The position numbers and the translations under genes were made by a program. The notes under the pieces were generated by a model, which was not told where the DNA came from, did not search any database, and saw nothing but the letters and a program-made list of their open reading frames with translations. Shown here in pieces: positions 8,738 to 57,773 of a stretch of 64,000 nucleotides of DNA. Each line of letters begins with the position of its first letter. Within the stretch, counting starts at the first letter, position 1. Origin of the DNA: Dactylosporangium sp. AC04546 (GTDB taxonomy: Bacteria; Actinomycetota; Actinomycetes; Mycobacteriales; Micromonosporaceae); NCBI RefSeq assembly GCF_022095675.1, contig NZ_JAHYSG010000060.1, positions 10,593 to 74,592 of the forward strand, written 5' to 3'.

Positions 8738-8750
8738 GGCCGAAGGTCCC
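8738..8750. promoter_or_regulatory. DevR/DosR-like box upstream of adhP
   Basis: GGCCGAAGGTCCC, the complement of GGGACCTTCGGCC, ends 70 bp upstream of the adhP start. A second degenerate copy (GCCGAAGGTCATGTCCC) begins at 8762 and overlaps the end of the neighbouring stress-protein gene. Confidence 0.65.
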
Positions 8751-8769
8751 GCCGGCCCGGCGCCGAAGG

Positions 8770-9609
8770 TCATGTCCCGTGGGCCACCAGGACCGGGCGG
8801 TGGGCGCGGTGCAGCGACGCCATGGCCACGCTGCCGAGGAGGATCTCGCGGACCGCCGAGCGGCCCCGGGAGCCGACGACCAGCACCGCCGCCGACCGGT
8901 CCCGGGCGCAGTCGGTGAGCGCGCCGGCGACGGCGCGGCCCGGTGTGCCGGACCGGCCGGGCAACTTGATCAGCTCGACGGTGCCGGCGGGCGGGGCGGC
9001 GGGTGCGGGGCCGTCGTCGACGGTGACCGCCAGCAGGCGCCGGGTCGGGAAGAGCCGGGCGGCCGCCGTGACGGCGAGCTGCGCGCCCGCCGAGCCGTCG
9101 TAGCCGACCAGCACCGGGCCGCCGGCGAGGGCCGCGTACTCGGTGCTCAGCAGCGGGTGGGGTACCACGAGGACAGGCCGGGTCGCGGCGTGCACGACCG
9201 TGTCGGAGACGCTGCCCAACACCGCCCGGGCGCCGCCGAGGCCGCGCGAGCCGACCAGCACCAGGTCGGCGTCGTGCTGCTCGGCCAGCTCGGCGAGCTG
9301 GAGGCCCTCCCCGGCGTAGGTCTGCGACACCAGCGGTTCGGCGTCCCAGCCGGCGGCCTGGGCGAGGGTGACGCCGATCCCGGCGATCCGGGCCGCCTCC
9401 CGCCCGCCTTCCCGCTCGACCGCCGCGACGAAGTCGTCGATCTGGGCGGCGCCGGTCCACAGCCGACGCCGCATCGCGTCGTCGGCGAACGGCGGGGTCC
9501 ACAGGTGGGCCACCAAGGCCTTCGCCTGCGGGAACAGCTCCGCGGCGGCGGTGATGGCGGCACTCGCCGCCGGTGAGCCGTCGTAGCCGACGAGCACGCG
9601 GATGGGCAT
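8770..9609 (-). CDS. Universal stress protein, two UspA domains
   Basis: A 279-residue tandem USP; each half begins with the beta1 nucleotide-binding pattern (RVLVGYDGSPAAS; VLVGYDGSAGAQ). Each half ends with the ATP-binding G-x2-G-x9-G-S signature: VVGSRGRSAVREILLGSVAM in the second half and LVGSRGLGGARAVLGSVSDT in the first. Such proteins bind ATP and are typical DosR-regulon members (Rv2005c/Rv2623 class). It lies between adhP and a CoA-binding-protein gene on the same strand. A candidate box is 59 bp upstream of its start. Confidence 0.9.
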   Translation of the reverse strand: MPIRVLVGYDGSPAASAAITAAAELFPQAKALVAHLWTPPFADDAMRRRLWTGAAQIDDFVAAVEREGGREAARIAGIGVTLAQAAGWDAEPLVSQTYAGEGLQLAELAEQHDADLVLVGSRGLGGARAVLGSVSDTVVHAATRPVLVVPHPLLSTEYAALAGGPVLVGYDGSAGAQLAVTAAARLFPTRRLLAVTVDDGPAPAAPPAGTVELIKLPGRSGTPGRAVAGALTDCARDRSAAVLVVGSRGRSAVREILLGSVAMASLHRAHRPVLVAHGT

Positions 9610-9667
9610 GACAGCCTCCTCGACGTCCGGATGGTTCCAGCATGTCGAGCCGGGCGCGCCGCCGGCA

Positions 9668-9681
9668 GGGCGTTCGGTCCC
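9668..9681. promoter_or_regulatory. Candidate box upstream of universal stress gene
   Basis: GGGCGTTCGGTCCC keeps the outer GGG/CCC arms of the recurring motif, with an altered centre. It lies 59 bp before the start at 9609. Confidence 0.4.
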
Positions 9682-9722
9682 GGCTCACCCCTGCCGTTCG
9701 TACCGGATGAGTCCCGGGCACC

Positions 9723-9769
9723 GCCCGAAGGTCCCGCCGGCACGGGTACCGCGGCGGGACCTTCGGCTC
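9723..9769 (-). terminator. Hairpin after CoA-binding gene, arms made of two inverted boxes
   Basis: CCGAAGGTCCCGCCG and its exact complement form 15-bp arms around a short loop, just downstream of the stop of the CoA-binding-protein gene (9776). It suits a rho-independent terminator without a T-run, but each arm is also a good copy of the recurring GGGACCTTCGG box, so a double function is possible. Confidence 0.6.
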
Positions 9770-9775
9770 TGCCGG

Positions 9776-10252
9776 TCAGATCCGGCGCGGGATGCCGCCC
9801 GTACGCGACAGGATGAAGCACATGGCCTTGTGGCCGAGGTCGGCGGTGGGGCCGAACATCAGCGGGCAGCCGCCGGCGATGACGTGGATCCCGTGCCGCC
9901 GGCCGTACTCGGCGGCCTCCTCGGAGACGCTGCCGGGGCCGGGCCCGCGGTGCATCCACACGTGGGTGATGCCGAGCTCGGCGCACTCGCGCATGGTCGC
10001 CTCGGCCGTCTCGGGCCGGGTGCCGATGACGACCGCGTCGACACCGCCGGGGATCGCGGCGAGGTCCCGGTATGCGCGGTCGCCCTCGACCTGCTCCGCG
10101 TTGGGGTTGACCGCGAACACCTCGTAGCCGCGCTGGCGCAGCCGCTGGTAGACGGCGTTGCTGCCGTGACCCTGCGGGGTGCGGGACACCCCGGTCACCG
10201 CGATCCGTTTGTGGGCCAGGAACTGGGTCGCGGTCGCTTTCAGTGTTGGCAT
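9776..10252 (-). CDS. CoA-binding domain protein (YccU-like)
   Basis: A 158-residue Rossmann protein of the stand-alone CoA_binding family. The nucleotide-binding turn AVTGVSRTPQGHGSNAVYQ sits near residue 18. The domain continues through VFAVNPNAEQVEG, DAVVIGTRPETAEATM and HVWMHRGPGPGSVSEEA to GGCPLMFG. Single-domain members bind CoA or acyl-CoA, but their reactions are poorly defined. The gene lies 18 bp downstream of the ABC-ATPase gene on the same strand, so the two are probably co-transcribed under the large palindrome at 11535-11590. Confidence 0.82.
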   Translation of the reverse strand: MPTLKATATQFLAHKRIAVTGVSRTPQGHGSNAVYQRLRQRGYEVFAVNPNAEQVEGDRAYRDLAAIPGGVDAVVIGTRPETAEATMRECAELGITHVWMHRGPGPGSVSEEAAEYGRRHGIHVIAGGCPLMFGPTADLGHKAMCFILSRTGGIPRRI

Positions 10253-10270
10253 GGTGGCCTCCCGGGCCGA

Positions 10271-11461
<1,191 letters not shown>

Positions 11462-11534: not shown

Positions 11535-11590
11535 GGGCCGAAGGTCATGCCGCGGGGGGCCGGAGCTGACCGCGGCATGACCTTCGGCCC
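11535..11590. promoter_or_regulatory. Perfect 21-bp inverted repeat carrying two boxes in a divergent promoter region
   Basis: The left arm 11535-11555 begins GGGCCGAAGGTCATG and the right arm 11570-11590 is its exact complement, with a 14-bp spacer. Each arm ends in a good copy of the recurring box. The flanking genes point away from each other (starts at 11461 minus and 11628 plus), so this is not a terminator; it is best read as a bidirectional operator. Confidence 0.7.
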
Positions 11591-13973: not shown

Positions 13974-14273
13974 TCACGCCCCGGGCACCGTGAGCGGGTG
14001 CTCGGCGTCGTCCTGCGCCGCCATCGCGGCCATGGTCGCCTGGTACTCCCCGCGGCTGAGGTGGCCCGCGACGAGCTCGTGGGCCGCCTCGGCCTCGGCC
14101 CGCGCCCGGCGCCGCTCGCCGGCCCCGGCCAGCTGGACAGCCAGCCAGACGGCCAGCCGCGGCCGGTACCGGTCGTCGGCCGTTCCCCAGCCGCGGATCG
14201 CCGCGACGTGCATGGCGATCAGCGCGACGTACACCGCCGCGACCACCCCCGCGAAGATCATCGCCGCTGCCAT
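13974..14273 (-). CDS. Small membrane protein with SHOCT-like C-terminus
   Basis: A 99-residue protein. ATG 14273 follows GGGAG at a 6-nt spacing. Residues ~2-25 form one membrane segment (AMIFAGVVAAVYVALIAMHVAAI). The C-terminal part contains a short helical motif (AHELVAGHLSRGEYQATMAAM) of the SHOCT type, often found in small oligomerising membrane proteins. It is divergent from the 48-residue membrane protein across a box. No enzymatic function is suggested. Confidence 0.7.
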   Translation of the reverse strand: MAAAMIFAGVVAAVYVALIAMHVAAIRGWGTADDRYRPRLAVWLAVQLAGAGERRRARAEAEAAHELVAGHLSRGEYQATMAAMAAQDDAEHPLTVPGA

Positions 14274-14358: not shown

Positions 14359-14372
14359 GGGCCCAACGGCCC
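14359..14372. promoter_or_regulatory. Box between divergent small membrane-protein genes
   Basis: GGGCCCAACGGCCC is nearly symmetrical and lies 57 bp before the plus-strand start at 14430 and 86 bp before the minus-strand start at 14273. Confidence 0.5.
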
Positions 14373-15147: not shown

Positions 15148-15219
15148 CGTCGCCACCTCCCGGATGTGTCGGTCATTCCCGATACCTCCACGGTGCCGCC
15201 GCGACGGTGCGGCGGACAC

Positions 15220-15233
15220 CGCCGAACGTCCCG
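15220..15233. promoter_or_regulatory. Box in divergent region between 68-aa gene and USP gene
   Basis: CGCCGAACGTCCCG (complement CGGGACGTTCGGCG) lies 77 bp before the USP start at 15311 and 73 bp before the opposite start at 15147. Confidence 0.55.
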
Positions 15234-16170: not shown

Positions 16171-16201
16171 CGGGCCCGTACGGCACGGCCGTACGGGCCC
16201 G
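16171..16201 (+). terminator. Terminator hairpin after USP gene
   Basis: Perfect 14-bp arms (CGGGCCCGTACGGC and complement) with a 3-nt loop, 11 bp after the USP stop. The right arm runs into the next box. Confidence 0.75.
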
Positions 16202-17270: not shown

Positions 17271-17298
17271 GGGACCATCGGCCCGGGACTTCCGGCCG
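17271..17298. promoter_or_regulatory. Two adjacent boxes upstream of the gap operon
   Basis: GGGACCATCGGCCC (17271-17284) and GGGACTTCCGGCCG (17285-17298) lie back to back with the same orientation, 85 bp before the start at 17384. This is one of the strongest box arrangements in the window. Confidence 0.7.
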
Positions 17299-18671: not shown

Positions 18672-18675
18672 GACG

Positions 18676-18708
18676 GCAGCGGCCCCCACGGACGGCGGGG
18701 GCCGCTGC
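18676..18708 (+). terminator. Terminator of the gap operon
   Basis: Arms GCAGCGGCCCCC and complement (12 bp) with a 9-nt loop start 5 bp after the gap stop. Confidence 0.8.
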
Positions 18709-18731
18709 GCCGTCGGTGCGCTCGAACGGCC

Positions 18732-18929: not shown

Positions 18930-19047
18930 CCGAAGTGCACAGGTCGTCGGACGGCGTCTGAACTGGATGACTGCGGTGCTACCGCGGGTCGGGCCGCTTC
19001 GGCCGGCATGCTCCGGCGATTAGGCTCGGTTTGAGGGGGTGATCTCG

Positions 19048-19368: not shown

Positions 19369-19405
19369 TCCGGCTGCATCCGGGCTGGCCAGTTGCGAGA
19401 GCACG

Positions 19406-20451: not shown

Positions 20452-20462
20452 CTCCACCTCTC

Positions 20463-21220: not shown

Positions 21221-21961
21221 TCAGTACGCGGCGAGACCGGTGCGGCGGAACTGCTCGCGGACCCGGTCGACGAGGGCGGTGTCCGGCGGCGGCGTGTCGA
21301 GCAGCGGGAACGGGATGCCGAGGCGCTCGTACTTCGGGGCGCCCAGCCGGTGGAACGGCAGCACGTCGACCCGTTCGACGGTGCCGAGCGCGGCCGCGAA
21401 CCGGGCGACGCCGTCGACCTCGGCCGGGTCGTCGGTGAGGCCGGGCACCAGCACGTAGCGGACCCAGATCGGCGTGCCCCGGGCGGCGAGCCGGCGGGCG
21501 AAGGCCAGCGTCGGCGCGACCTCTCCCCCGGTGAGCCGGCGGTACCGCGCCGGGTCCCACGCCTTGACGTCGAGCAGCACGAGGTCGGTGACGTCGAGCA
21601 GGGCCTCGGACGCGCGGGCGCCGAGCCCGCCGGCCGTGTCGAGGGCCGTGGGCAGGCCCAGCCCCCGGGCGCCGGTGAACAGGGCCTCGACGAAGCGGGG
21701 CTGCAGCAGCGGCTCGCCGCCGCTCACCGTCATCCCGCCGCCGGCGACGTGCACGAACGACGCGAACTGCTCGACCTGGCGCAGCACGGCACCGGCCGTC
21801 GTGGCGGTGCCGTCGCGCATGTGCCAGGTGTCCGGGTTCTGGCAGTACAGGCAGCGCAGCGGGCACCCGGCGAGGAATGCCACGAAGCGGGTGCCGGGCC
21901 CGTCCACACCCGTGGAGATGTCCCACGAGTGCAGCCGGCCCGGCACCGTCGCGACCGTCAT
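21221..21961 (-). CDS. pflA: Pyruvate formate-lyase-activating enzyme (radical SAM)
   Basis: A 246-residue activase that uses SAM and a 4Fe-4S cluster to place a glycyl radical on PFL. The cluster motif C-x3-C-x2-C is in [16 protein letters not shown] near residue 35. The SAM-binding GGEP-type motif is [10 protein letters not shown], and the DVKAWDP block fits PflA. ATG 21961 overlaps the pflB stop (ATGA), so the two are translationally coupled. Its presence shows the pathway is meant to operate without oxygen, because the radical enzyme is destroyed by O2. Confidence 0.95.
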
Positions 21962-24216
21962 CGGGCACCGTGGAAGGTCCGGCCGATCACGTCGCGCTGC
22001 TGCTCCGGGGTCAGCTTCACGAAGTTGACCGCGTAGCCCGACACACGCACGGTCAGCTGCGGGTACCGCTCGGGGTGCGCCATCGCGTCCACGAGCGTCT
22101 CGCGGTCGAGCACGTTCACGTTGAGGTGGAACCCGCCCGCGGCCGTGTAGCCGTCGAGGATCCCGGCCAGGTTCACCGCCCGCTCGGCGTCGGCGCGGCC
22201 CAGGCCGTCGGGGGTGACGGTGCTGGTGAGCGAGATGCCGTCGCGGGCCGACGCGTACGGCAGCTTCGCCACCGACAGCGCCGAGGCGACCATGCCGTGC
22301 GTGTCGCGGCCGTTCATCGGGTTCGCCCCCGGCGCGAACGGCTCGCCGGCGCGGCGGCCGTCGGGCGTGTTGCCGGTATGCTTGCCATAGACCACGTTCG
22401 AGGTGATCGTGAGCACCGACTGGGTGTGGATCGCGCCGCGGTACGACGGATTGCTGCGGACCTTCTCCATGAACGTCTCGACCAGCCACACGGCGATGCG
22501 GTCGGCGCGGTCGTCGCCGTTGCCGTAGGCCGGGTAGCCGCCCTCGATGACGTAGTCGATTGCGAGCCCGGTCTCGTCGCGCACGGGCCGCACCCTGGCG
22601 TAGCGGATCGCCGACAGGCTGTCGGCGGCGACGGACAGCCCGGCGATGCCGCAGGCCAGGAACCGGCGCACCGGGTAGTCGTGCAGCGCCATCTCGATCC
22701 GCTCGTAGGCGTACCTGTCGTGCATGCAGTGGATGATGTTCAGCGCGTCGACGTATGTGCGGGCGAGCCAGTCGAGGGTCCGGTCGAACGCGGCCAGGAC
22801 GGTGTCGTAGTCGAGGACGTCGCCGGTCAGCGGCGGGGACGGCGGGGCGACCTGGACGCCGCTCATCTCGTCGCGGCCGCCGTTGATCGCGTACAGCAGG
22901 GCCTTGGCCACGTTCACCCGCGCGCCGAAGAACTGCATGTCCTTGCCGACCCGCATCGCCGAGACGCAGCACGCGATCGCCGTGTCGTCGTCGCTGTGCA
23001 AGCGCAGCAGGTCGTCGTTCTCGTACTGGATCGCGCTGGTGTCGAGCGACACCTGCGCGCAGAAGCGCTTGAACGGCTCGGGCAGCGCCGGCGACCACAG
23101 CACGGTCAGGTTCGGCTCCGGCGCCGGGCCGAGGTTGTACAGCGTCTGCAGGTAGCGGTACGACGTGCGGGTGACCAGGGTCCGCCCGTCGCGGCCCATC
23201 CCGCCGATCGCCTCGGTGACCCAGGTCGGGTCGCCGGAGAACAGCTGGTCGTACTCGGGCGTGCGCAGGAACCGGATGATGCGCAGCTTGATGACGAAGT
23301 CGTCGATCAGCTCCTGCGCCTGCTCCTCGGTGAGCGTGCCCTCGTCGCGGTCGCGCTCGAGGTACACGTCGAGGAAGCTCGACGTGCGGCCGAGCGACAT
23401 CGCGGCGCCGTTCTGGTCCTTGGTCGCGGCGAGGTAGGCGAAGTACAGCCACTGCACGGCCTCCCGCGCGGTGCGGGCCGGGCCCGAGACGTCGTAGCCG
23501 TAGCTCGCGGCCATCGCCTTGAGCTCGTCCAGCGCCCGCAGCTGCTCGGCGAGCTCCTCGCGGTCGCGGATGACGTCGGTGGTGGCCGGGTGGTCGTCGA
23601 GGGACGCCTTGTCGCGCCGCTTCGCGGCGATCAGGGCGTCGACGCCGTACAGCGGGACCCGGCGGTAGTCGCCGATGATGCGGCCGCGGCCGTACGCGTC
23701 GGGCAGGCCGGTGATGACGCCGGCCTTGCGGGCGGCGAGGATCTGCGGCGTGTAGGCGTCGAACACGGCGTCGTTGTGGGTCTTGCGGTACCGCGTGAAG
23801 ATCTCGCGGACGGCCGGGTCGAGCTCGTAGCCGTAGGCGCGCAGCCCGTTCTCGACCATCCGCAGCCCACCGGAGGGCATGATGGCCCGGCGCAGCGGCG
23901 CGTCCGTCTGCAAGCCGACGATCAGCTCCGCGTCGCGGTCGATGTACCCCGGGGCGTGCGCGGTGATCGACGCCGGGGTGTGCGGGTCGACGTCGTAGAT
24001 GCCGCGCCGCTGCTCCTGCGGGAACATGGCGGTGAGCAGGCCCCACACGTGGGTGGTCCGGGCGGTGGGCCCGGCGAGGAAGCCGCCGTCGCCGGTGTAC
24101 GGGCACACGTTGGCCCGCACGAACCCGGCCACGTCGATCTCGTCGCGCCACGGCCCGCCGCGGAAGCCACGCCAGGCGGCGAGGCCGGCCGGCGCGGGAA
24201 CACTCGTGGTGGTCAT
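21958..24216 (-). CDS. pflB: Pyruvate formate-lyase
   Basis: A 752-residue glycyl-radical enzyme, close to the 760 of the E. coli enzyme, that splits pyruvate and CoA into acetyl-CoA and formate. The paired catalytic cysteines are in AIACCVSAM (near residue 410), and the glycyl-radical motif RVSGYAVNF is near the C-terminus. The Cys-Cys pair and length separate it from diol or glycerol dehydratases. ATG 24216 follows GAGGAGGAACC. PFL is uncommon in filamentous actinomycetes, so it marks a fermentative capacity. It is divergent from ppdK across a palindrome and a box. Confidence 0.95.
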
Positions 24217-24251: not shown

Positions 24252-24299
24252 CCTGTCCCGTCGCGGACTTGCGGGACAGGGTCGTTGGACCTCCGGCCG
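24252..24299. promoter_or_regulatory. pflB/ppdK divergent operator region
   Basis: CCTGTCCCG (24252-24260) and CGGGACAGG (24272-24280) form an inverted repeat with an 11-bp spacer, followed by a box-like TGGACCTCCGGCCG (24286-24299). The palindrome lies 36 bp from the pflB start and the box 71 bp from the ppdK start. It is the only place where this particular inverted repeat was noticed. Confidence 0.55.
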
Positions 24300-24370: not shown

Positions 24371-26989
<2,619 letters not shown>

Positions 26990-27859: not shown

Positions 27860-27900
27860 GGGCCCGGCGTCGCGGTGACCTTCGGCCCTGACGCCGGGCC
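27860..27900 (+). terminator. Hairpin carrying a box in its loop, between USP and ATPase genes
   Basis: Eleven-bp arms GGCCCGGCGTC (27860-27870) and complement (27890-27900) enclose the box GTGACCTTCGGCCC (27875-27888). The hairpin can end the ppdK-usp transcript, while the loop box lies 35 bp before the ATPase start at 27924. Confidence 0.6.
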
Positions 27901-27923: not shown

Positions 27924-30386
27924 ATGACGACCACCACGTCGGCGCCGGCGGGTCTCACCACGGCCCGGGCCGCCGAGATCCGGTCCACGGCGGGGCGCAA
28001 CGAGCTGCCGGCGGCGCGGCCGCCGTCGATCGCCGGGCGGATCGCCGCCCAGCTGCGGGACCCGCTCATCGTCGTCCTGCTCGCCGCGATGGTCGTGACG
28101 GCCGTCCTGCGCGACCTGCCCGACCTGGCGGTCATCGCCCTCGTCGTCGTCCTCAACACCACGATCGGCGTGGTCCAGGAGGTCCGCGCCGACCGGGCCG
28201 TCGCCGCGCTGCGGCGCATGGCGGCGCCCCACGCGCGGGTCCGCCGCGACGGCGCCGACGTCGTGCTGCCGGCGGCCGAGCTGGTGCCCGGCGACGTCGT
28301 GCGGGTCGAGGCCGGCGACGTCGTCCCGGCCGACCTGCGCGTCGCCGAGGCCGTGCGGCTCACCGCCGACGAGTCGGCGCTCACCGGCGAGTCGATGACC
28401 GTGTCGCGGGCCGCCGGCGACGAGCTGTCCGCCGGGACGGTCACCGCCACCGGCCGGGCCGTCGGCGTGGTCGTTCGGACCGGCACCGACAGCGCCCTGG
28501 GCCGCATCGCCGCGCTCGTCGCCGGCCAGCCCCGCCGGGCCACCCCGCTGCAGCGGCGCCTCGCCGGGCTCGGCAAGGTCCTCGCCGCCGTCGCGGTCAC
28601 CCTGTCGGCGGTCGTCTTCGCCGTCGGCGTGCTACGCGGCCAGCCGGTCACCGAGATGCTGCTCGCCGCGGTCAGCCTCACCGTCGCCGCGGTGCCCGAG
28701 TCGCTGCCCGCCGTCGTCACCCTCGCGCTGGCCCTCGGCGCGCACCGGATGGCGCGCCGCTCGGCGATCGTGCGTCGGCTCCCCACCGTCGAGACGCTCG
28801 GCTCGGTCACCGTGCTGGCGACCGACAAGACCGGCACCCTCACCGAGGGCCTCATGAGCGTCGAGCGGTTCGTGCTGCCGGACGGGGCGGACATCACGTT
28901 CACCGGCCGCGGCTACGACCCGCGCGGTACCGCCGAGCCGGCCCCCGGCCCCGACGGCCTGGAGCTGGCCCGGGCCCTGGTGCTGTGCACCGACGCCGGC
29001 CTCGCCACCGGCGACGACGGCACCTGGACCCCGGTCGGCGACCCGATGGAGGCCGCACTGCTCACCGCCGCCGGCCGCTGCGGCGTCGGCGTCGCGCTCC
29101 GCGACCGCTACGAGCGCGTCGACGAGGTGCCGTTCGACGCCGAGCGCCGCCGGATGACCACCGTCCACGCCGACCCCGCCGGCGGCTACCTGGTCGTCGT
29201 CAAGGGCGCCCCGGACGCGCTGCTGACCGGCGACGAGCTCGGCGCCGCGCAGCTGGCCGACGACGGCTACCGCGTCCTGGCCGTCGCCACCGCCCACCAC
29301 GACGAGCTGCCGGCCCACGACCGCCTCGAGGACGGGCTGCGCCTGCTCGGCCTCGTCGCCCTCACCGACCCGGTCCGCGAGGCGGCGCCGGCGACCGTGG
29401 CCGCGTTCCACGCCGCCGGCATCCGGCCGATCCTCATCACCGGCGACCACCCGGCCACCGCGACGGCGGTCGCCGCGCGGGTCGGCCTGGTCCGCGCCGG
29501 CGACGACCCGGCCGCGGCCGTCTACGCCCGCACCCGCCCCGAGGAGAAGCTCACCATCATCCGGCGGCTGCAGCGCGACGGCCACGTCGTGGCGATGACC
29601 GGCGACGGCGTGAACGACGCGCCCGCGCTGCGGCGGGCCGACATCGGCGTCGCGATGGGCCGCGGCGGTACCGAAGCCGCCCGGCAGGCCGCCGACCTGG
29701 TGCTCGCCGACGACGACCTGGCCACCATCGGCACCGCGATCCGGGAGGGGCGGCGCATCTACGCCAACATCCGCCGGTTCCTGGTGTACGCCCTGGCCGG
29801 CGGCGTCGCCGAGATCCTCGTCATGCTCGCCGGGCCGTGGCTGGGCCTGGCGGTGCCGCTGCTGCCCGCGCAGATCCTGTGGATCAACATGATCACCCAC
29901 GGCCTGCCGGGCGTCGCCCTCGGCGGCGAGCCGGCGACCCCGGACCTGATGCGCCGCCCGCCCCGCCGGCCCGACCAGGCCGTCCTCGGCGGGCTGACCG
30001 GGCGCATCGCGCTCATCGGCGCGCTCATCACCGCCACCGTCCTCGGCACGGCCCTGTGGACGGCCCACGCCGGCGGTCCCTGGCAGACCGTGCTGTTCGT
30101 GACGCTGGGCCTGGCGCAGCTCGGGGTGGCCCTCGCCCTGCGGGTGCGGGCCGGCCGGGCCCGCAACCGCAGCCTGGACGCCGCCGTCGCGCTGTCGCTG
30201 CTGCTCCAGGTGGCCGCGGTGTGGCTGCCGCCGCTGCGGGACCTGCTCGGCACCGAACCGCTGACGCTGGTCCAGCTGGGCGCGTGCGCGCTCGCGGCGG
30301 CGGTGCCCGGGGCGATCACGGCCCTTGTGGCCCGCCGGCCCGGGACGAACGGCCCTGCACCCGCCGCCCGCGAGGCGGTCGAATGA
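27924..30386 (+). CDS. Cation-transporting P-type ATPase, CtpF/Ca-ATPase-like (P2)
   Basis: An 820-residue membrane pump. The actuator motif is LTGESMT; the phosphorylation site DKTGTLTEG lies near residue 302; the nucleotide/hinge motifs KGAPDAL and TGDGVNDAPAL near residue 558 are intact. The P-x-x-P motif in TM4 reads VPESLPAVVT, as in P2-type pumps. About ten hydrophobic segments are seen. The N-terminal cation-ATPase region resembles shortened P2 pumps. CtpF is a DosR-regulon member in mycobacteria, and the box 35 bp upstream supports the same logic here. The transported ion is uncertain. Confidence 0.9.
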   Translation: MTTTTSAPAGLTTARAAEIRSTAGRNELPAARPPSIAGRIAAQLRDPLIVVLLAAMVVTAVLRDLPDLAVIALVVVLNTTIGVVQEVRADRAVAALRRMAAPHARVRRDGADVVLPAAELVPGDVVRVEAGDVVPADLRVAEAVRLTADESALTGESMTVSRAAGDELSAGTVTATGRAVGVVVRTGTDSALGRIAALVAGQPRRATPLQRRLAGLGKVLAAVAVTLSAVVFAVGVLRGQPVTEMLLAAVSLTVAAVPESLPAVVTLALALGAHRMARRSAIVRRLPTVETLGSVTVLATDKTGTLTEGLMSVERFVLPDGADITFTGRGYDPRGTAEPAPGPDGLELARALVLCTDAGLATGDDGTWTPVGDPMEAALLTAAGRCGVGVALRDRYERVDEVPFDAERRRMTTVHADPAGGYLVVVKGAPDALLTGDELGAAQLADDGYRVLAVATAHHDELPAHDRLEDGLRLLGLVALTDPVREAAPATVAAFHAAGIRPILITGDHPATATAVAARVGLVRAGDDPAAAVYARTRPEEKLTIIRRLQRDGHVVAMTGDGVNDAPALRRADIGVAMGRGGTEAARQAADLVLADDDLATIGTAIREGRRIYANIRRFLVYALAGGVAEILVMLAGPWLGLAVPLLPAQILWINMITHGLPGVALGGEPATPDLMRRPPRRPDQAVLGGLTGRIALIGALITATVLGTALWTAHAGGPWQTVLFVTLGLAQLGVALALRVRAGRARNRSLDAAVALSLLLQVAAVWLPPLRDLLGTEPLTLVQLGACALAAAVPGAITALVARRPGTNGPAPAAREAVE

Positions 30387-30763: not shown

Positions 30764-30800
30764 GGCGGGGCAGGTCCGGGACTTCCGGCCCTGCCCCGCC
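30764..30800 (+). terminator. Hairpin carrying a box in its loop, between HPF-like and SHOCT genes
   Basis: Eleven-bp arms GGCGGGGCAGG and complement enclose the box GGGACTTCCGGCCC (30778-30791). It lies 15 bp after the HPF-like stop, and the box ends 35 bp before the next start at 30827, the same geometry as at 27860. Confidence 0.65.
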
Positions 30801-32025: not shown

Positions 32026-33009
32026 TCACGGTTGACCCGGTAGTCCGACAGTATCGGTGCCGGAACGGCGGGTCGACACGGGGACCGGTCCCGCGTCCTG
32101 CTCGGGGTAGCCGACACGCACGGCGATCGCCGGGTGGCCGGCGCCGCCGAGCAGCCGGCGCAGCGCCGCACGCACCGGCTCGACCTCGACCACCTCGCTG
32201 ATCGGCGAGGCCGCCAGCCCGCGCGCGGTGAGCGTGAGCCAGACGTCCGACAGCGCCTCACCGGCGGCGAGCCAGGCCGCGGGCGCCTCGGCGTCGACGG
32301 CGAGCACGAGGTACACCGTGCCCCGATCGGCGCCGGGGCCGGGTCGCAGGGTCGCGGGCGCGGCCGGGTTCAGGTCCCGGGGCGGGACCGGCTGGGAGCC
32401 GGCGGGCACGGTGCTGCGGGCCGACACGCCGTCGCGCTCCTGGCGGGGTCGGGTCGTCCAGGCCAGGATGTCGGCCCGGTACCGGTCGTCGGCGCGCTCC
32501 ACGGCGTTGGCGTGGGCGACGGCCGACGCGAACGCCGCGACCTGGTCGGGCCGCACCACGTGCAGGTGCGTGCCGTGCCGCTCGGCGGCCGCGCCCAGCT
32601 CGGCCAGGACCGACCCGTCCGGGCGGCGGTCGGCGAACGGGCGGCGGTCGGTGCGGCGCCGGTAGATCGCCGCGTAGAGGTCCCGCTCCGCCGGGCCGGG
32701 CGCGCCCTGGCGGATGCGGGCCAGCAGGTCGGGCCGCTCCGCGTCCGGCAGCCGCTCGATGTCCGCCGCGTACCCGGCGGCCCGCAGCGCGACGGTGGCG
32801 TGGTGCAGCGCGGTACCGCAGCTGAGCAGCAGCAGCCGCCCGTCGGGGTCGAGCCCGTCGAGCCGGCGGGCCCGGTCGGCCCACAGCTCGGCGTGCTCGC
32901 CCTCGAGGCGCCACCGCCAGGGCTGGGTGTTGAGGATCGACGGGGCGCGCAGGGCGGCGATCGACGCCTCGGCCAGCTGGTCGATCTCGGCGCGCGGGTG
33001 CTGTGTCAT
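32026..33009 (-). CDS. Acg-family nitroreductase-like protein
   Basis: A 327-residue paralogue. It opens EASIAALRAPSILNTQPWRW and keeps LLLLSCGTALHHATVALRAAG, RRRTDRRPF and WLAAGEALSDVWLTLTARG. ATG 33009 overlaps the adhE stop (ATGA), which couples it translationally to adhE; the operon reads adhE, this gene, then the nitroreductase at 31035. Coupling of a flavoprotein to a fermentative enzyme suggests a redox role during hypoxia, but the partner substrate is unknown. Confidence 0.85.
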   Translation of the reverse strand: MTQHPRAEIDQLAEASIAALRAPSILNTQPWRWRLEGEHAELWADRARRLDGLDPDGRLLLLSCGTALHHATVALRAAGYAADIERLPDAERPDLLARIRQGAPGPAERDLYAAIYRRRTDRRPFADRRPDGSVLAELGAAAERHGTHLHVVRPDQVAAFASAVAHANAVERADDRYRADILAWTTRPRQERDGVSARSTVPAGSQPVPPRDLNPAAPATLRPGPGADRGTVYLVLAVDAEAPAAWLAAGEALSDVWLTLTARGLAASPISEVVEVEPVRAALRRLLGGAGHPAIAVRVGYPEQDAGPVPVSTRRSGTDTVGLPGQP

Positions 33010-35636
33010 GATGCCCTCCGCTGCTCGGTGAGGTGGCCGTAGTAGGCGCCGCGCATGAGCTCGCGCAGGTCGGCGAGCATCGGCATGCGCGGGTTGGCCG
33101 GGGCGCACTGGTCGAGGTAGGCGTTCATGGCCTGCTGCGGCAGGGCGTCCAGGAACGTCGCCTCGTCGACGCCGGCCGCCTGGAACGACGGCTCGATGCC
33201 GACCTCGGCCCGCAGCCGCTCGACCGCCGCCGCGTAGGACTCCACGCCCTCCTCGGGCGTGGCCGCCGGCAGGCCGAGCATGCGGGCGATGTCCTGGTAG
33301 CGCTCCGGGGCGACGTACCGCTCGTACTTGGGCCAGGCGGTCAGCTTCGCCGGCACCGTGCCGTTGTGCCGGATCACGTGCGGCAGCAGGATCGCGTTGG
33401 TCCGCCCGTGCGCGATGTGGAACGTGGCGCCGAGGGTGTGCGCGAGCGAGTGGACGATGCCGAGGAAGGCGTTGCCGAAGGCCATCCCGGCGATCGACCC
33501 GGCGTTGTGCATCTTCTCCCGGGCCACCGGCGCGGCGGCGCCGTCGCGCACGGCGGCCGGCAGGTGCTCGAAGATGAGCCGGATCGCGTGCAGGGCGAGG
33601 CCGTCGGTGTAGTCGCTGGCGTACACCGACACGTACGCCTCGGTCGCGTGGGTGAGGGCGTCGAACCCGCTGTCGGCGGTCACGTTCGGCGGCAGGTCGG
33701 CGGTGAGCGCCGGGTCGACGATCGCCACGCTCGGGGTGAGCGCGTAGTCGGCGAGCGGGTACTTCATGCCGGTCGTCGTGTCGGTGATGACGGCGAACGG
33801 GGTGATCTCGGCGCCGGTGCCCGACGTCGTGGGGACGCACACCAGCCGCGCGAGCCGGCCCAGGGTCGGGAACGTGAAGGCGCGCTTGCGGATGTCGAAG
33901 AACTTCTCCCGCATGTCGGCGAACTCGGTGCCCGGGTGCTCGTAGAGCAGCCACATCACCTTGGCCGCGTCCATCGGCGAGCCGCCGCCGAGGGCGATGA
34001 TGGTGTCGGGCCGGAACTGCCGCATGAGCCCGGCGCCCCGCTCGACGGTCGCCATCGTCGGCTCCGGCTCGACGTCGTCGAGGATCTGCACCGTCACCGG
34101 GTTGGCGCCGCGGCGCAGCACGCCGCGGATGCGGTCGACGTAGCCGAGGCGGGTCATCGTCGGGTCGGTCACGATCGTGACCCGGTGCACGCCGGGCAGG
34201 TCGGCGAGGTAGCGGATCGCGTTGGGCTCGAAGTAGATCCTCGGCGGGACCTTGAACCACTGCAGGTTGTTCGTCCGTCGCCCGACCCGCTTGATGTTGA
34301 GCAGGTTGACCGCCGAGACGTTGCCGGAGACCGAGTTGCGCCCGTAGCTGCCGCAGCCGAGGGTGAGCGAGGGCAGGAACGCGTTGTAGACGTCGCCGAT
34401 GCCGCCCTGCGAGGACGGCGAGTTCCAGATGATCCGCACCGCCTTCACCCGCTGGCCGTACGCCTCGGCGGTGGCCGCGTCGGCCGTGTGGATCACGGCG
34501 CTGTGGCCGAGGCCGTCGAGCTCGACCATCTCCTCGGCGAGCCGGAACCCGTCCTCGCGCGACGCGGCGCGCAGCACGGCGAGCACCGGGCAGAGCTTCT
34601 CCCGGGTGAGCGGCTCCTGCGGCCCGACCGAGCCGACGGGCACCAGGATGACGCTCGTGTCGGCGGGCACCTCGAAGCCGGCCTGCTCGGCGATCCACGT
34701 GGCGGGCCGCCCGACCACGTCCGGGTTGAGCGCACCGCCCGGCCCGCCGAAGATGCACCGCTCCAGCTGCTGGCGCTGCGCCGGGGTGGCGACGTGGGCG
34801 TGCAGCCGCGCGAAGACGGCCAGGGCCTCCTCGGCGATCTCCTCGTCGAGGATGACGGCCTGCTCCGACGCGCAGATCATGCCGTTGTCGAAGGTCTTGG
34901 ACACGACGATGTCGTGGACGGCGCGCACGACGTCGGCGGTGCGCTCGACGTAGGCGGGCACGTTGCCGGGGCCGACGCCGAGGGCGGGCTTGCCGGCCGA
35001 GTAGGCGGCCCGGACCATGCCGCTGCCGCCGGTGGCGAGGATGACCGCCACGCCGGGGTGGCGCATGAGCGCCTGGGTCGCCTCGATCGACGGCGCCTCG
35101 ACCCACTGGACGCAGTGCCGCGGCGCGCCGGCGGCGATCGCGGCGTCGCGGACGACGCGGGCCGCCTCGGCGCTGCACCGCTGCGCGGCCGGGTGGAAGG
35201 CGAACACGACCGGGTTGCGGGTCTTCAGGGCGATGAGGGCCTTGAAGATCGTGGTCGAGGTCGGGTTCGTCACCGGGGTGACCGCGCAGACCACGCCGAC
35301 GGGCTCGGCGATCTCGACGATCCCGTCGATGTCGTCGCGGGACACCACGCCGACGGTGCGCAGCCCGTCGAGGCTGTGCGCGATGTGCTCCGAGGCGAAG
35401 ACGTTCTTGACCGCCTTGTCCTCGAAGACGCCGCGGCCGGTCTCCTCGATCGCCAGCTCGGCGAGGCGGCCGTGCTGGCTGAGCGCGGCGACGGACGCCT
35501 TCTTGACGATGTGGTCGATCTGCTCCTGGCTGAGGTCCGCGTAGCCGTCCAGCGCCCGTGCGGCCTGGCCCACCAGCCGGTCGATCGCCGCTGCGGGTGC
35601 CTCCACGGTGACGTCCAGGATCGGGGCGGCGGTCAC
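33006..35636 (-). CDS. adhE: Bifunctional acetaldehyde-CoA/alcohol dehydrogenase
   Basis: About 876 residues; reduces acetyl-CoA to acetaldehyde and then ethanol, using two NADH. The N-terminal aldehyde dehydrogenase half has the catalytic Cys in FDNGMICASEQAVI and the GxGxxP-like GVGPGNVPAYV. The C-terminal iron alcohol dehydrogenase half has GGGSPMDAAK, TTSGTGAEITPF, THATEAYVSVYASD and the iron ligands in IVHSLAHTLGATFHIAHGR. GTG 35636 is chosen for the GAGGG 11 nt upstream; GTGs at 35645 and 35654 are in-frame alternatives. Together with PFL it closes a redox-balanced ethanol route. Confidence 0.95.
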   Translation of the reverse strand: MTAAPILDVTVEAPAAAIDRLVGQAARALDGYADLSQEQIDHIVKKASVAALSQHGRLAELAIEETGRGVFEDKAVKNVFASEHIAHSLDGLRTVGVVSRDDIDGIVEIAEPVGVVCAVTPVTNPTSTTIFKALIALKTRNPVVFAFHPAAQRCSAEAARVVRDAAIAAGAPRHCVQWVEAPSIEATQALMRHPGVAVILATGGSGMVRAAYSAGKPALGVGPGNVPAYVERTADVVRAVHDIVVSKTFDNGMICASEQAVILDEEIAEEALAVFARLHAHVATPAQRQQLERCIFGGPGGALNPDVVGRPATWIAEQAGFEVPADTSVILVPVGSVGPQEPLTREKLCPVLAVLRAASREDGFRLAEEMVELDGLGHSAVIHTADAATAEAYGQRVKAVRIIWNSPSSQGGIGDVYNAFLPSLTLGCGSYGRNSVSGNVSAVNLLNIKRVGRRTNNLQWFKVPPRIYFEPNAIRYLADLPGVHRVTIVTDPTMTRLGYVDRIRGVLRRGANPVTVQILDDVEPEPTMATVERGAGLMRQFRPDTIIALGGGSPMDAAKVMWLLYEHPGTEFADMREKFFDIRKRAFTFPTLGRLARLVCVPTTSGTGAEITPFAVITDTTTGMKYPLADYALTPSVAIVDPALTADLPPNVTADSGFDALTHATEAYVSVYASDYTDGLALHAIRLIFEHLPAAVRDGAAAPVAREKMHNAGSIAGMAFGNAFLGIVHSLAHTLGATFHIAHGRTNAILLPHVIRHNGTVPAKLTAWPKYERYVAPERYQDIARMLGLPAATPEEGVESYAAAVERLRAEVGIEPSFQAAGVDEATFLDALPQQAMNAYLDQCAPANPRMPMLADLRELMRGAYYGHLTEQRRAS

Positions 35637-35707
35637 GATGATCACATCCCTCACGAGTGGTGTGGCGCCGACACCTCCACCCTCGCCGACCCGTCCGCCC
35701 GGACCCA

Positions 35708-38740: not shown

Positions 38741-38754
38741 GGGCCGAAGGTCAC
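38741..38754. promoter_or_regulatory. Box upstream of CBS-BON gene
   Basis: GGGCCGAAGGTCAC (complement GTGACCTTCGGCCC) lies 36 bp before the start at 38705, the same distance as the loop boxes at 27875 and 30778. It abuts the 3' end of the next gene. Confidence 0.6.
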
Positions 38755-39228: not shown

Positions 39229-39314
39229 GGGCCGAACGGCCCGGGTCACCCGGGACCTTCCGCGCCGCCCGCCGGATCGACGCCGGGTCCCGGCCCCGGC
39301 GGGACCATCGCCCC
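39229..39314. promoter_or_regulatory. Cluster of three boxes in a divergent region
   Basis: GGGCCGAACGGCCC (39229-39242), GGGACCTTCCGCGC (39252-39265) and GGGACCATCGCCCC (39301-39314). The first lies 62 bp from the flavoprotein start at 39166, the last 37 bp from the nitroreductase start at 39352. Confidence 0.65.
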
Positions 39315-42375: not shown

Positions 42376-42389
42376 GGGCCGAACGGCAC
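42376..42389. promoter_or_regulatory. Box upstream of CBS-BON gene
   Basis: GGGCCGAACGGCAC (complement GTGCCGTTCGGCCC) lies 68 bp before the minus-strand start at 42308. Confidence 0.55.
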
Positions 42390-44543: not shown

Positions 44544-46505
44544 TCAGTCGGCGCGGACCATCGGGAACGACACCAGCGCCGCGTTCGGGTCCGGCTCGGT
44601 CAGCGGGATCTCGGCGGTCAGCGTCGTGCCCCGCGCCGGCGGGCTGACCACGGCGAGCCGGCCGCCCAGGGCCTCGACGCGGTCGCGGAGGCCGATGAGG
44701 CCGGTGCCGCCGGCCGGGTCGGCCCCGCCGGTGCCGTCGTCACGCACGGCCAGCCAGACCCGACGGTCGTCGGCGGTGACCGTCACGCAGGCGACCGACG
44801 CCCCGGCGTGTTTGGCCACATTGGTCAGCGCCTCGGACACCACGTAGTAGACCGCCACCTCCACCCGTTCGGGCAACCGCCGGTCGACCTGCACCCGCAG
44901 GTCCACCGGCACGACGCTGCGCCGGGCCAGCGTGCGCAGCATCGGGCACACACCGCCCTGGGTCAGCAGCGCCGGGTGGATGCCGCGGGCGAGGTCCGTC
45001 ATGGACTCGTGGATCTCGGTGAGGTTCCGCACGGCACCGGTGAGCAGGTGCTGGACCGCCGGGTCCTCGGCCATCGCCGAGTCCCCCGCGATGCGCAGCC
45101 GCAGCGCCAGCGAGACGATCCGCTGCTGCGGACCGTCGTGCAGGTCCCGTTCGATCCGGCGCCGGGCGTCGTCGGCCGCGGCGACCAGCCGCACGCGGGA
45201 GGCGGCGAGCCGGGCCCGGTTCTCGGCGTTGGCGATCGCGGTGGCCACCAGCTCGGTGAACGCCTGCAGACGGGCCTCCGCGTCGGCGGGCACCGGCTCC
45301 GGCTGGTACGACCGGACGAGCGTGACGCCCCACAGCTCGCCGTCGACCACGATCGGCACGCCGACGCCGCGGTGGACCCCGAGCGCGCGCACCTGCTCGG
45401 CGATCGGCCCGGTGGCGGTGTCGTAGTCGATCCGCGCGGTGCGGTGGGTACTGCGGATCATGCCCACGAGGTCCTCACCGGTGATCGGCACGCCCGGCCG
45501 GTCGGGCAGCAGCTGCCCGTCCTCGTCGCGCTCCGAGACGGACGTGACGGTGCCGCCCGGCTCGTACCGGAACAGCCCGGTGTGCAACCCCCGGAAGAGC
45601 TGGTGCAGCTCCGCCGTCACCGCCGCGAACACCTCCGTGGGCGGCCCGCCGGCCGCGACCAGCGTGGCCACCCGGCGCAGTGCGGCCTGCTCGGCCAGCA
45701 GCGCCTGGGTCGCCTGCTGGCTGTCCCGCAGCGTGTCGAGGAGCTCCTGGCGGTCCAGGGCGCTGCCGACGATCCCCGACAGCGCCGGGCCGAGGTGGTC
45801 ACGGAGCCGGTCCACCGTCCCGGGCGGGGTGGTGTCCGCCACGATGAGCCGCACCGGACGCCCCTCCCGGTCGCGCAGGCGGAGCACGAGCGCGCCGGCC
45901 GTCTCGTCGGTGGCCTGGTCGGCGGCCTGGTCGGTGGCCCCCTCGGTGGCCTCGCCCGGACCCGGCGGGTCGCCGGCCTCGATCGACGCGTGGGAGAGAC
46001 CCAACCGGGCCGCGAGGTGCCGCGCCCCGGCCCGCAGCCCGGACGGCAGGTCGTCCTCGCCGAGGATGCGGCGCGCGAGCTCGGCGGAGATGTCCGCCTC
46101 GGCCGCCCGTTGCTGCGCCTCCGCCGTGCGGGACCGGGCGAGGTCGGCCAGCCCGCTGCTGAACAGCGCCACGACGGCGAACACCGCGACCCGCTGGAGG
46201 TCGTGGGCCACGGTCAGGTGCAGCCCGCTCGGCGGGACGAGGAAGTAGTTGAACGCCACCGTGCTGCCCAGCGCGGCCAGCAGGCCGAGCCCCGCGCCCC
46301 ACACGGTCGTCAGCGCCAGCACGCCGAGGATGTACAGCGCGGCGCTCGGCTGGCTGTCGGGGGTGGTGAGGCCGAGCACGGCCAGCACGGCCGTCTCCAG
46401 CGCGACGACGGCCACCGCGACGGCGACGCCGAGCACCTGCGACGGCGGCGACGCCGGCAGCAGCCAACGCATCAGCCGACGCCGGACGGCGTTGCGCACC
46501 GTCAT
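44544..46505 (-). CDS. Sensor histidine kinase with DUF4118 membrane domain and GAF domain
   Basis: A 653-residue kinase. Four hydrophobic helices in residues ~20-130 (with WGAGLGLLAALGSTVAFNYF) form a KdpD-like DUF4118 domain. A less clear linker domain follows. A GAF domain covers ~285-430 (AALRRVATLVAAGGPPTEVF to GVGVPIVVDGELWGVTLVR). The H-box is RRIERDLHDGPQQRIVSLAL near residue 452, and an HATPase_c domain (EALTNVAKHAGAS; GTGLIGLRDRVEALGG) ends the protein. It thus pairs with a NarL/DevR-type regulator, none of which is adjacent. DosS/DosT also combine GAF with this kinase class, which makes it a candidate sensor for the island. Confidence 0.88.
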   Translation of the reverse strand: MTVRNAVRRRLMRWLLPASPPSQVLGVAVAVAVVALETAVLAVLGLTTPDSQPSAALYILGVLALTTVWGAGLGLLAALGSTVAFNYFLVPPSGLHLTVAHDLQRVAVFAVVALFSSGLADLARSRTAEAQQRAAEADISAELARRILGEDDLPSGLRAGARHLAARLGLSHASIEAGDPPGPGEATEGATDQAADQATDETAGALVLRLRDREGRPVRLIVADTTPPGTVDRLRDHLGPALSGIVGSALDRQELLDTLRDSQQATQALLAEQAALRRVATLVAAGGPPTEVFAAVTAELHQLFRGLHTGLFRYEPGGTVTSVSERDEDGQLLPDRPGVPITGEDLVGMIRSTHRTARIDYDTATGPIAEQVRALGVHRGVGVPIVVDGELWGVTLVRSYQPEPVPADAEARLQAFTELVATAIANAENRARLAASRVRLVAAADDARRRIERDLHDGPQQRIVSLALRLRIAGDSAMAEDPAVQHLLTGAVRNLTEIHESMTDLARGIHPALLTQGGVCPMLRTLARRSVVPVDLRVQVDRRLPERVEVAVYYVVSEALTNVAKHAGASVACVTVTADDRRVWLAVRDDGTGGADPAGGTGLIGLRDRVEALGGRLAVVSPPARGTTLTAEIPLTEPDPNAALVSFPMVRAD

Positions 46506-51082: not shown

Positions 51083-51111
51083 CCACATCCCGTGACCTTC
51101 GGCCGATGTGG
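51083..51111. promoter_or_regulatory. Box flanked by short inverted arms upstream of the acyltransferase gene
   Basis: CCACATC and GATGTGG enclose the box GTGACCTTCGGCCG (51092-51105), 49 bp before the start at 51155 and 43 bp after the GH65 stop. It is a shorter version of the box-in-hairpin arrangement at 27860 and 30764. Confidence 0.55.
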
Positions 51112-56736: not shown

Positions 56737-56772
56737 CCTGACCTCCCCCGGGCGCCCGGACCGGCGCCGCGG

Positions 56773-57441
56773 CTAGGCCCCCTCCGGCACGCCGGGGCCG
56801 CGACGTCCACCGACGCGGCGCACCAGAGCGTTGACATGGCCGCCGGTCCGGGTGGCCGGCGCCGAGCGGCCGCCCGCCCGGTGCATCGGCACGCACCACG
56901 GCGCCGCGGCCGACAGCCGCACCGCACGCGTGGCCCCGCCCGCCGCGACGACACGGAAGTGCCGGGCCAGCACGCGCGTGTCCGGCTGCGCCCGCGGCGG
57001 GAACACGCCCCGGTACACGACCGGACGCGGCGTCACGCCACCGGCCACCATCTGCGCCAGTGCGCGCTCCGTGCCGATGCAGCAGTCCTCGGCGTAGTCC
57101 AGACCCGCCTCGGACGCCAGCCGGCGGGCCTGCGGGCTGGTGATGCCCGGCTGCAGCCACACCGCGCCGGCGCCGATCGCGGCCGCCTGCCGGACGAGTT
57201 CGGGCGCCTCCCGTGCGGGCCGGAAGACGTTCACGACGTCGACGTGCACGGGGATGTCGGCCAGCCGCGCGTACGCCTGCTCGCCCAGCACCCGGCCCGC
57301 GAACGGGTTGACCGGGATGATCTGCCATCCGTGCTCCTGCAGTCCCTTCGGTACCCAATGCGCCGGCTTCAACGGATCACGGGACGCACCGACGATCGCG
57401 ACGGTGTGCGCCCCGGCAAGGATCTCCCTCGGGGTGCGCAT
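56773..57441 (-). CDS. CoA-binding domain protein with long C-terminal extension
   Basis: A 222-residue protein. ATG 57441 follows GGAGG. Residues 1-140 are a standard CoA_binding domain: AHTVAIVGASRDPLKPAHWV, IIPVNPFAGRVLGEQAYARL, DVVNVFRPAREAPELVRQA, AVWLQPGITSPQA and the closing AEDCCIGTE. Family members normally end there. Here about 80 further residues follow, basic and low in acidic residues (RTGGHVNALVRRVGGRRGPG), with no recognised domain. A box lies 76 bp upstream. The extension may mediate nucleic-acid or protein binding, or reflect a run-on frame. Confidence 0.8.
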   Translation of the reverse strand: MRTPREILAGAHTVAIVGASRDPLKPAHWVPKGLQEHGWQIIPVNPFAGRVLGEQAYARLADIPVHVDVVNVFRPAREAPELVRQAAAIGAGAVWLQPGITSPQARRLASEAGLDYAEDCCIGTERALAQMVAGGVTPRPVVYRGVFPPRAQPDTRVLARHFRVVAAGGATRAVRLSAAAPWCVPMHRAGGRSAPATRTGGHVNALVRRVGGRRGPGVPEGA

Positions 57442-57516
57442 CGGACTCACCTCCAACGAGCTGCGTGGAACCATGACTCCAGCTCAACCGTTTCTCGGTG
57501 CCGTGCCGCCCCGCAA

Positions 57517-57530
57517 TGCCGGAAGTCCCG
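57517..57530. promoter_or_regulatory. Box upstream of CoA-binding gene
   Basis: TGCCGGAAGTCCCG (complement CGGGACTTCCGGCA) lies 76 bp before the minus-strand start at 57441. Confidence 0.55.
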
Positions 57531-57577
57531 GATGTCCGGGCCGACCGGCGAAGTCTCCTCGGGACTGACCTGCGGCA

Positions 57578-57599
57578 GTTCACCCGGCGTTCACCCGGC
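57578..57599. promoter_or_regulatory. Perfect 11-bp tandem repeat resembling a PHO box
   Basis: GTTCACCCGGC occurs twice head to tail. The PhoP-binding PHO box of streptomycetes consists of 11-bp direct repeats close to GTTCAYYYRSG, which both units match at ten of eleven positions. It lies 43 bp before the start of the 35-residue membrane protein gene. Confidence 0.5.
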
Positions 57600-57641
57600 C
57601 CCCCTACATTTCCGCGGGCAACGAACTAGAAGGGGAACCAG

Positions 57642-57749
57642 ATGTCCGCTCTGCTGTCCGCCATCGCGGTCGAAGTGATCAGCGCGCTGCTCGTCTCGCT
57701 CGTCGTCATGGCGGTTCGTCGGCTGGTCAACCGCACCGCGACGGCCTGA
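57642..57749 (+). CDS. Small membrane protein, 35 aa
   Basis: ATG 57642 is preceded by AAGGGGA at 5 nt, and the frame ends at 57749. The product starts MSALLSAIAVEVISALLVSL, one hydrophobic helix, and ends with a short positively charged tail (AVRRLVNRTATA). Good ribosome-binding site, amphipathic character and a PHO-box-like repeat upstream make it credible. It precedes the two genes of the large ATPase locus but has a separate box between it and them. Confidence 0.55.
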   Translation: MSALLSAIAVEVISALLVSLVVMAVRRLVNRTATA

Positions 57750-57759
57750 GCCACACACC

Positions 57760-57773
57760 GTCCGAAGGTCACC
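57760..57773. promoter_or_regulatory. Box upstream of the large ATPase operon
   Basis: GTCCGAAGGTCACC (complement GGTGACCTTCGGAC) lies 72 bp before the start at 57846. Confidence 0.55.

Follow-up and report, generated by a model that had tools for sequence, protein, structure and literature searches.

The closest described counterpart of the system reported here is the OsdR (SCO0204) regulon of Streptomyces coelicolor, which covers SCO0167–SCO0219 and carries the box AGGGACCTTCGGCCCC before SCO0167 and SCO0216 (PMC5069765). Genes for universal stress proteins (USP), alcohol dehydrogenase, nitroreductase, pyridoxamine-phosphate oxidase, and pyruvate phosphate dikinase (PPDK) are clustered in this region; nitrate reductase genes are among the targets, a site precedes the regulator's own gene, which lies within the island, and a DevS-like kinase, OsdK, is present (PMC5069765). 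The second described system is DevR (DosR) of Mycobacterium tuberculosis, a regulator with Asp54 and a haem-GAF kinase as partner, whose target promoters contain one, two, or more boxes and which controls an Acg-family gene (tgs1–Rv3131 region; PMC3029386, PMC4082495) as well as USP genes (Rv2623; PMC2682197). Here, we describe a window of 64,000 nucleotides from Dactylosporangium sp. AC04546 (bases 10593–74592 of contig C60, 74,592 bases), in which an island of about 50 kb (approximately 7.6–58 kb of the window) resembles both systems. DosR/DevR-like sequence motifs recur in this island. With a probability of about 0.87, they are predicted to be the operators of a DevR/OsdR (DosR-family) regulator encoded on another contig (C214), whose regulon would include the island as well as fermentation genes of the Micromonosporaceae. 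For S. coelicolor OsdR, the literature already describes the box, the regulator, and an island of this type (PMC5069765).

In contrast to S. coelicolor, devR is not located within the island, which holds genes for pyruvate formate-lyase (PFL), PFL activase, and AdhE; Table 1 of PMC5069765 lists neither pfl nor adhE. The genome comprises 13.02 Mb on 348 contigs (99.75% complete). The stress genes of the island encode nine USPs together with CBS and CBS-BON proteins, an Hsp20 and five Acg-family (Rv3131-type) nitroreductases, as well as an S30AE ribosome-hibernation-type protein, a P-type cation ATPase, and an Rv2632c-like protein, while the metabolic genes encode a zinc alcohol dehydrogenase, GAPDH, PFL and its activase, PPDK, and AdhE. 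A CoA transferase, a GNAT/ADP-forming acyl-CoA synthetase, and an orphan histidine kinase are also encoded. The PFL shares 93% identity with its counterpart in Dactylosporangium sucinum and 89% with the one in D. vinaceum.

The motif is genuine, and its frequency is far above chance. The published OsdR sites before SCO0167 (usp) and SCO0216 (narG2) have the 14-mer GGGACCTTCGGCCC as their core (PMC5069765, Table 1), in agreement with the match to the DosR box claimed in an earlier, sequence-only reading of the window. Allowing up to three mismatches, 39 matches were counted in the window (25.7 ± 4.9 expected), a number reached by one of 100 shuffles. Since this count takes in coding matches, stronger tests were used, with OsdR sites as the only known sites entering them. 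A symmetric matrix derived from the 26 OsdR sites of PMC5069765 (Table 1), and independent of the window, was applied to the island and to 40 control stretches of the same genome. At a score of ≥7, island intergenic DNA contained 17 sites in 6.7 kb (2.5 per kb) and island coding DNA 11 sites in 43.7 kb (0.25 per kb), compared with 32 sites in 110.5 kb (0.29 per kb) and 121 sites in 689.5 kb (0.18 per kb) of control intergenic and coding DNA, respectively. This score was reached in 11 of 21 island promoter regions versus 11 of 255 control regions (Fisher's exact test, 1.2 ∙ 10−8), and a score of ≥10 in six of 21 versus one of 255. An outcome that would have refuted the earlier reading, namely sites just as frequent before unrelated genes or within coding DNA, was not observed. 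A leave-one-out matrix of the island itself, slightly circular in that a matrix from all regions had seeded the choice of sites, gave scores of ≥11 in 12 of 21 island regions versus eight of 255 controls.

De novo motif discovery in the 21 island regions, with a model of one site per region and confined to intergenic DNA, returned G[G/T]GACCTTCGGCC with a log-likelihood of 93.7 (120 restarts), compared with 54.8–68.7 for 20 length-matched control sets (40 restarts each). This model was used because an expectation maximization search with a free number of sites had picked up the periodicity of codons and gave scores no lower for the control sets than for the island. When the motif was forced to be palindromic, the fit was poorer (57.1 vs. 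93.7). Genome-wide, 57 sites with no more than one mismatch were found (34 for a reversed control pattern), eight of them in the window and two on the devR contig; the resulting ten on C60 and C214 compare with 0.37 expected. The 14-mer matches on contig C15 and two of the three on C126 fall in coding DNA. Among 41 pairs of boxes no more than 70 bp apart, taken from the island, devR, and the relatives' loci, 14 are spaced 20–23 bp (binomial 1.4 ∙ 10−7, assuming uniform spacing and with related loci that are not independent). According to PMC3029386, DevR binds cooperatively to primary and secondary sites that lie close together, which fits such pairing; a value for the box spacing was not found in those parts of the published DevR work that were searched for one.

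The regulator had been expected outside the window, and a DevR orthologue is indeed encoded on contig C214 (9.3 kb) behind the same boxes (L033:1416–2057, minus strand, 213 amino acids). Its best match in the PDB is M. tuberculosis DevR (3c3w, E = 5.7 ∙ 10−74, residues 1–208, ungapped), and both Asp54 and the sequence KTVKN (positions 179–183) are present. While at least 148 GerE-domain matches were obtained in the genome (150 of 294 candidates scored), a protein search with DevR gave a single match at E ≤ 10−60 (best 15 of 278 candidates), and an exhaustive genome search with a pattern that we take to represent the DevR recognition segment hit one place only. A NarL regulator encoded immediately to the left of the window (C60:9848–9985; L031:9782–10429) is without this segment and was rejected as a candidate. 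A DevS-type kinase gene (L034:1773–3482, minus strand; GAF-GAF-HisKA_3-HATPase) starts six bases downstream of devR, with which it is apparently cotranscribed. The first GAF domain matches the haem GAF-A structures of DosT and DevS (E = 1.9 ∙ 10−52 to 7 ∙ 10−45), and the histidine of an HPPM motif is aligned; by our residue count, it would correspond to the haem ligand His149/His147 (PMC4082495), so that haem binding is predicted. Three boxes are located between devR and a divergently oriented Acg gene, comparable to the site before the regulator's own gene in S. coelicolor.

The relation between DevR and the fermentation genes was analyzed in 200 Micromonosporaceae genomes (thresholds: PFL, E ≤ 10−3; DevR, E ≤ 10−60; AdhE, E ≤ 10−200). 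Matches to PFL were found in 66 genomes (two with short fragments only), to DevR in 169, and to AdhE in 43. DevR is present in 65 of the 66 PFL genomes, G081 being the exception, versus 104 of the 134 genomes without PFL (Fisher's exact test, 4 ∙ 10−5, ignoring relatedness). In at least 22 of the 66 genomes (three with partial PFL only), devR lies no more than 18 kb from pfl, as read by eye from two listings; random placement of one devR in 9 Mb would give approximately 0.3 such genomes. In complete genomes, the distance amounts to 2.1 Mb (D. vinaceum) and 0.24 Mb (D. fulvum). In the D. sucinum-like genome G095, PFL matches with the same score are found near the ends of two contigs (G095:C75:1615–3870 and G095:C76:47256–49511), which is probably an assembly overlap.

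For each of pfl, adhE, and devR, the 30 best-matching family loci, which include this genome and several near-identical ones, were compared with genes in control stretches of the relatives. Sites with an OsdR-matrix score of ≥8 at positions −160 to −30 precede 13, 9, and 16 of the 30 loci, respectively, versus two of 147 control genes; at ≥6, the numbers are 16, 17, and 18 versus ten of 147. An earlier, overlapping set had shown sites at 10 of 21 pfl loci. In Dactylosporangium, the aligned block GG.C...CG.CCCTG is present in the pfl promoter of all six genomes, with box scores of 19.0 in D. sucinum, 13.7 in both D. fulvum and G064, and 8.7 in G081. The box at this place in the window, between the divergent pfl and ppdk genes, is degenerate (GAGGTCCAACGACCCT, 24278..24293, minus strand, score −0.2); the site listed earlier at 24286 overlaps it. 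The adhE site is located at −88 to −91 in all four Dactylosporangium loci; it is weak in this genome (35731..35744, minus strand, 4.8) and scores 11.7 in D. fulvum, 8.1 in D. vinaceum, and 5.5 in G081. No AdhE match at the threshold was obtained in D. sucinum or G064. The earlier claim that fermentation genes stand under the boxes is thus carried by the relatives, in that four of six Dactylosporangium genomes have a strong pfl site at this position, rather than by the weak pfl/ppdk site of the window.

Several observations weigh against a DevR regulon of this extent. Because the pfl box is degenerate in this genome, as it also is in D. vinaceum, it is less certain here that pfl is under such control. 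Among the 30 family pfl loci, 17 have no site of ≥8, and an OsdR-matrix site of ≥6 is absent within 400 bp of pfl in Rugosimonospora, Spongiactinospora, Cellulomonas, Nocardioides, and Agromyces. The relatives cannot be counted as independent, and only the 30 best-matching loci entered the comparison. In D. sucinum, no site of ≥5 precedes the orthologues of the genes at 8770 and 17384, and in D. vinaceum, the same is true of pfl and of the orthologues of the genes at 30434 and 41613; the footprint of the whole island is only partial in these two species because synteny is broken. Ten of the 23 sites reported earlier score below 7 with the independent matrix. Within the island, a site of ≥7 of their own was found for only four of nine USP genes and two of four sampled CBS genes; the remaining USP genes may be read from operon promoters. 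Outside the island, a site of ≥8 is absent at all 14 testable CBS genes, at nine of ten testable USP genes, and at the Acg gene on contig C201 (loci were available for 30 of 33 USP and 30 of 47 CBS matches, of which one CBS and two USP loci were unusable). The idea that box presence follows the gene family was therefore rejected: their presence follows the island instead. Finally, no join links the contig of devR with the island, and contamination of the assembly is rated at 11.5%, although the DevR protein of C214 matches that of a D. sucinum-like genome (G095) without a difference over 211 residues.

The boxes could also define a DevR-type regulon of stress genes only, with the fermentation genes as passengers of the island that are otherwise controlled here, adhE perhaps by the neighboring PadR via a 19-nucleotide inverted repeat (35749–35790). 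The low scores at pfl/ppdk and adhE in this genome and the near-perfect repeat just before padR favor such an arrangement. However, sites are found at the same positions before pfl in four and before adhE in three other Dactylosporangium genomes, pfl and adhE loci are boxed far more often in the family than control genes (13/30 and 9/30 vs. 2/147), and at least 22 of 66 genomes have devR close to pfl, which leaves this explanation doubtful. The repeat itself (95%), which lies in the adhE/padR intergenic region directly in front of the PadR-family gene at 35796, is likely a PadR operator separate from the DevR-type box.

Alternatively, another NarL-type regulator of similar specificity might read the boxes, for example, a partner of the DUF4118 kinase encoded in the island. 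The large number of GerE-domain matches in the genome and the presence of a kinase of the island's own are in line with this assumption, but the DevR recognition segment searched for is encoded at one place only, boxes precede devR itself in this genome and in relatives, and no receiver or GerE domain was detected in the 40 of 53 window proteins that were scanned; we regard such a regulator as highly improbable. That the motif is a by-product of a G+C content of 75% and codon bias, its sites having been picked by eye, has practically no chance of being correct. Although 25.7 matches are expected by chance at three mismatches and many matches of the island matrix fall in coding DNA, this explanation is refuted by matched controls in the independent-matrix, leave-one-out, de novo, and cross-species tests.

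The preferred reading, a DevR regulon comprising the island and fermentation genes of the family, would operate as follows. Under low oxygen, the haem kinase would be deoxygenated and would phosphorylate DevR on Asp54. Phosphorylated DevR would bind single or paired boxes, the pairs often 20–23 bp apart, and activate transcription, whereas unphosphorylated DevR would be silent. The genes switched on would be those for USP, CBS-BON proteins, Acg nitroreductases, the ribosome-hibernation-type protein, and the cation ATPase, together with the devR operon itself. In the Micromonosporaceae, the regulon may have taken in glycyl radical fermentation, with pfl and adhE boxed in many members. Those steps that go beyond the sequence follow the established behavior of DevR (PMC3029386, PMC4082495).

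Each of the 23 coordinates given in the sequence-only reading holds a sequence of the kind described. Thirteen score ≥7 with the OsdR matrix and one scores 6.1, but nine remain below 5 (13437, 16195, 17285, 24286, 35731, 39252, 51092, 57517, and 57760). All 23 lie outside the genes of one set of gene calls, although 11577 carries a start codon in another. The reported distance of 36–80 bp to a start codon applies to 11 of 23 sites when measured from the site center and to 14 when measured from the near edge, the others lying outside this range; from the center, the nearest start codon is 42–154 bp away and in one case approximately 200 bp. Two strong sites were overlooked, one at 16186, overlapped by the listed 16195, and one at 30342. 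Control by a single DevR agrees with the regulon proposed here, but more than twenty transcription units are too many for this genome alone, in which 11 or 12 of 21 promoter regions carry a site.

At the left end of the island, a box at 8737..8750 (minus strand; island matrix 16.9, OsdR matrix 6.1) precedes the zinc alcohol dehydrogenase gene (7655–8668, minus) and has a partner at 8761, 23 bp off from center to center; in D. sucinum, this box is kept at −81. Scores given in the following refer to the OsdR matrix unless stated otherwise. The USP gene at 8770–9609 (minus) is preceded by a box at 9756..9769 (plus, 7.0) with a weaker partner at 9723. Two boxes 42 bp apart, 11535..11548 (minus) and 11577..11590 (plus), both scoring 7.3, are located in the region of the divergent genes for an ABC ATPase (10271–11461, minus) and a cNMP-CBS-DUF294 protein (11577 or 11628 to 13415, plus); the ATG within the second box is probably not the true start codon of the latter gene. 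A strong palindromic box (14359..14372, plus, 14.9) lies between 13974–14273 (minus) and the USP gene at 14573 (plus), and D. sucinum carries AGGGCCGATCGGCCCG at the same distance. The next two USP genes, 15311–16159 and 16285–17166 (both plus), follow boxes at 15219..15232 (minus, 7.9) and 16186..16199 (plus, 11.2), respectively, and a box at 17271..17284 (plus, 11.0) precedes 17384–17650 and the GAPDH gene (17661–18671, plus).

Downstream of pfl/ppdk, the P-type cation ATPase gene (27924–30386, plus) is preceded by a box at 27875..27888 (plus, 11.7). The very strong box of the S30AE/HPF-like gene (30434–30748, plus) at 30342..30355 (plus, 17.5) sits within the 3′-terminal part of the ATPase gene, at a distance of 85 bp from the gene it precedes, and a further box (30778..30791, plus, 11.6) is found before a small open reading frame (ORF; 30827–31057, plus). 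The CBS-BON gene at 38019–38705 (minus) has a box at 38741..38754 (minus, 8.1; island matrix 18.2). The strongest box of the island (39229..39242, minus, 18.3; partners at 39252 and 39301) separates the genes for a PNPOx-like protein (38756–39166, minus) and an Acg nitroreductase–CoA transferase (39412–41582, plus), and another strong box (42376..42389, minus, 16.0; partner at 42427, 9.8) lies between a second CBS-BON gene (41613–42308, minus) and a USP gene (42515–43420, plus). The box before the GNAT/ADP-forming acyl-CoA synthetase gene (51155–53761, plus) at 51092..51105 (plus) is of the island type (island matrix 18.2, OsdR matrix 2.2); some weak sites near the island consensus, such as this one and 57760, may be secondary sites.

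Boxes were also found elsewhere in the genome. On contig C8 (L185 7679–14041), a phosphoketolase (XFP) gene has a box with one mismatch 112 bp upstream, and the exact 14-mer occurs 5 kb further on before an Acg nitroreductase gene; this region is a putative small second cluster of the regulon. A two-domain USP gene on contig C39 is likewise preceded by a box.

With regard to the fermentation genes themselves, the PFL activating enzyme (radical SAM, Pfam; 21221..21961, minus) adjoins PFL (formate C-acetyltransferase; 21958..24216, minus; TIGR01255, 1135 bits), and PPDK is encoded at 24371..26989 (plus; TIGR01828, 1217 bits). The bifunctional acetaldehyde/alcohol dehydrogenase AdhE (33006..35654, minus; NF010378, 1350 bits) leads the cluster adhE-acg-acg; all three scores are above the respective cut-offs. 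Between the GAPDH and PFL activase genes, a section of 2.5 kb (18672–21220) has a lower G+C content (0.66–0.73 in 500-base windows) and few confidently called genes, with a GYD-domain gene at 19048. The orphan histidine kinase (44544..46505, minus; DUF4118-GAF-HisKA_3-HATPase, Pfam) has its best PDB matches in the kinase end; the significant match to DevS is confined to this end, and the protein was rejected as a DevS paralogue. No response regulator gene lies beside it, and the kinase may represent a second input or be unrelated. The 13 called window proteins outside the domain scan are USP or Acg proteins or products of short ORFs. No tRNA was found in the window, nor was there an Rfam match at the gathering threshold.

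To our knowledge, neither PFL nor AdhE belongs to the DevR regulon of M. tuberculosis. Among the matches listed by a literature search, the titles and abstract beginnings contained no link of PFL or AdhE to a DevR-type regulator and no DevR study in Micromonosporaceae, most subscription journals being outside the search. Measured against the published OsdR and DevR work found in this way, the fermentation part, that is, the boxes at pfl and adhE and the linkage of devR and pfl, goes further, and the boxes together with a complete DevR/DevS pair are placed in a lineage for which no DevR study was found.

Micromonosporaceae are usually regarded as aerobic actinomycetes. The boxes at stress genes in the island and at fermentation genes in relatives suggest that dormancy and fermentation are under a common oxygen-sensing switch in this family. 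It is reasonably probable that DevR of the Micromonosporaceae acts as the master switch of a fermentation of the type found in strict anaerobes, by which a single haem-sensed signal would control PFL, AdhE, CoA transferase, PPDK, and phosphoketolase along with the dormancy genes, devR having been drawn next to pfl in about one-third of the pfl-bearing genomes. Formate and ethanol production that is induced by hypoxia and dependent on DevR would be predicted. In a family of antibiotic producers, the role of a dormancy regulator would thereby be widened from surviving without growing to fermenting to survive.

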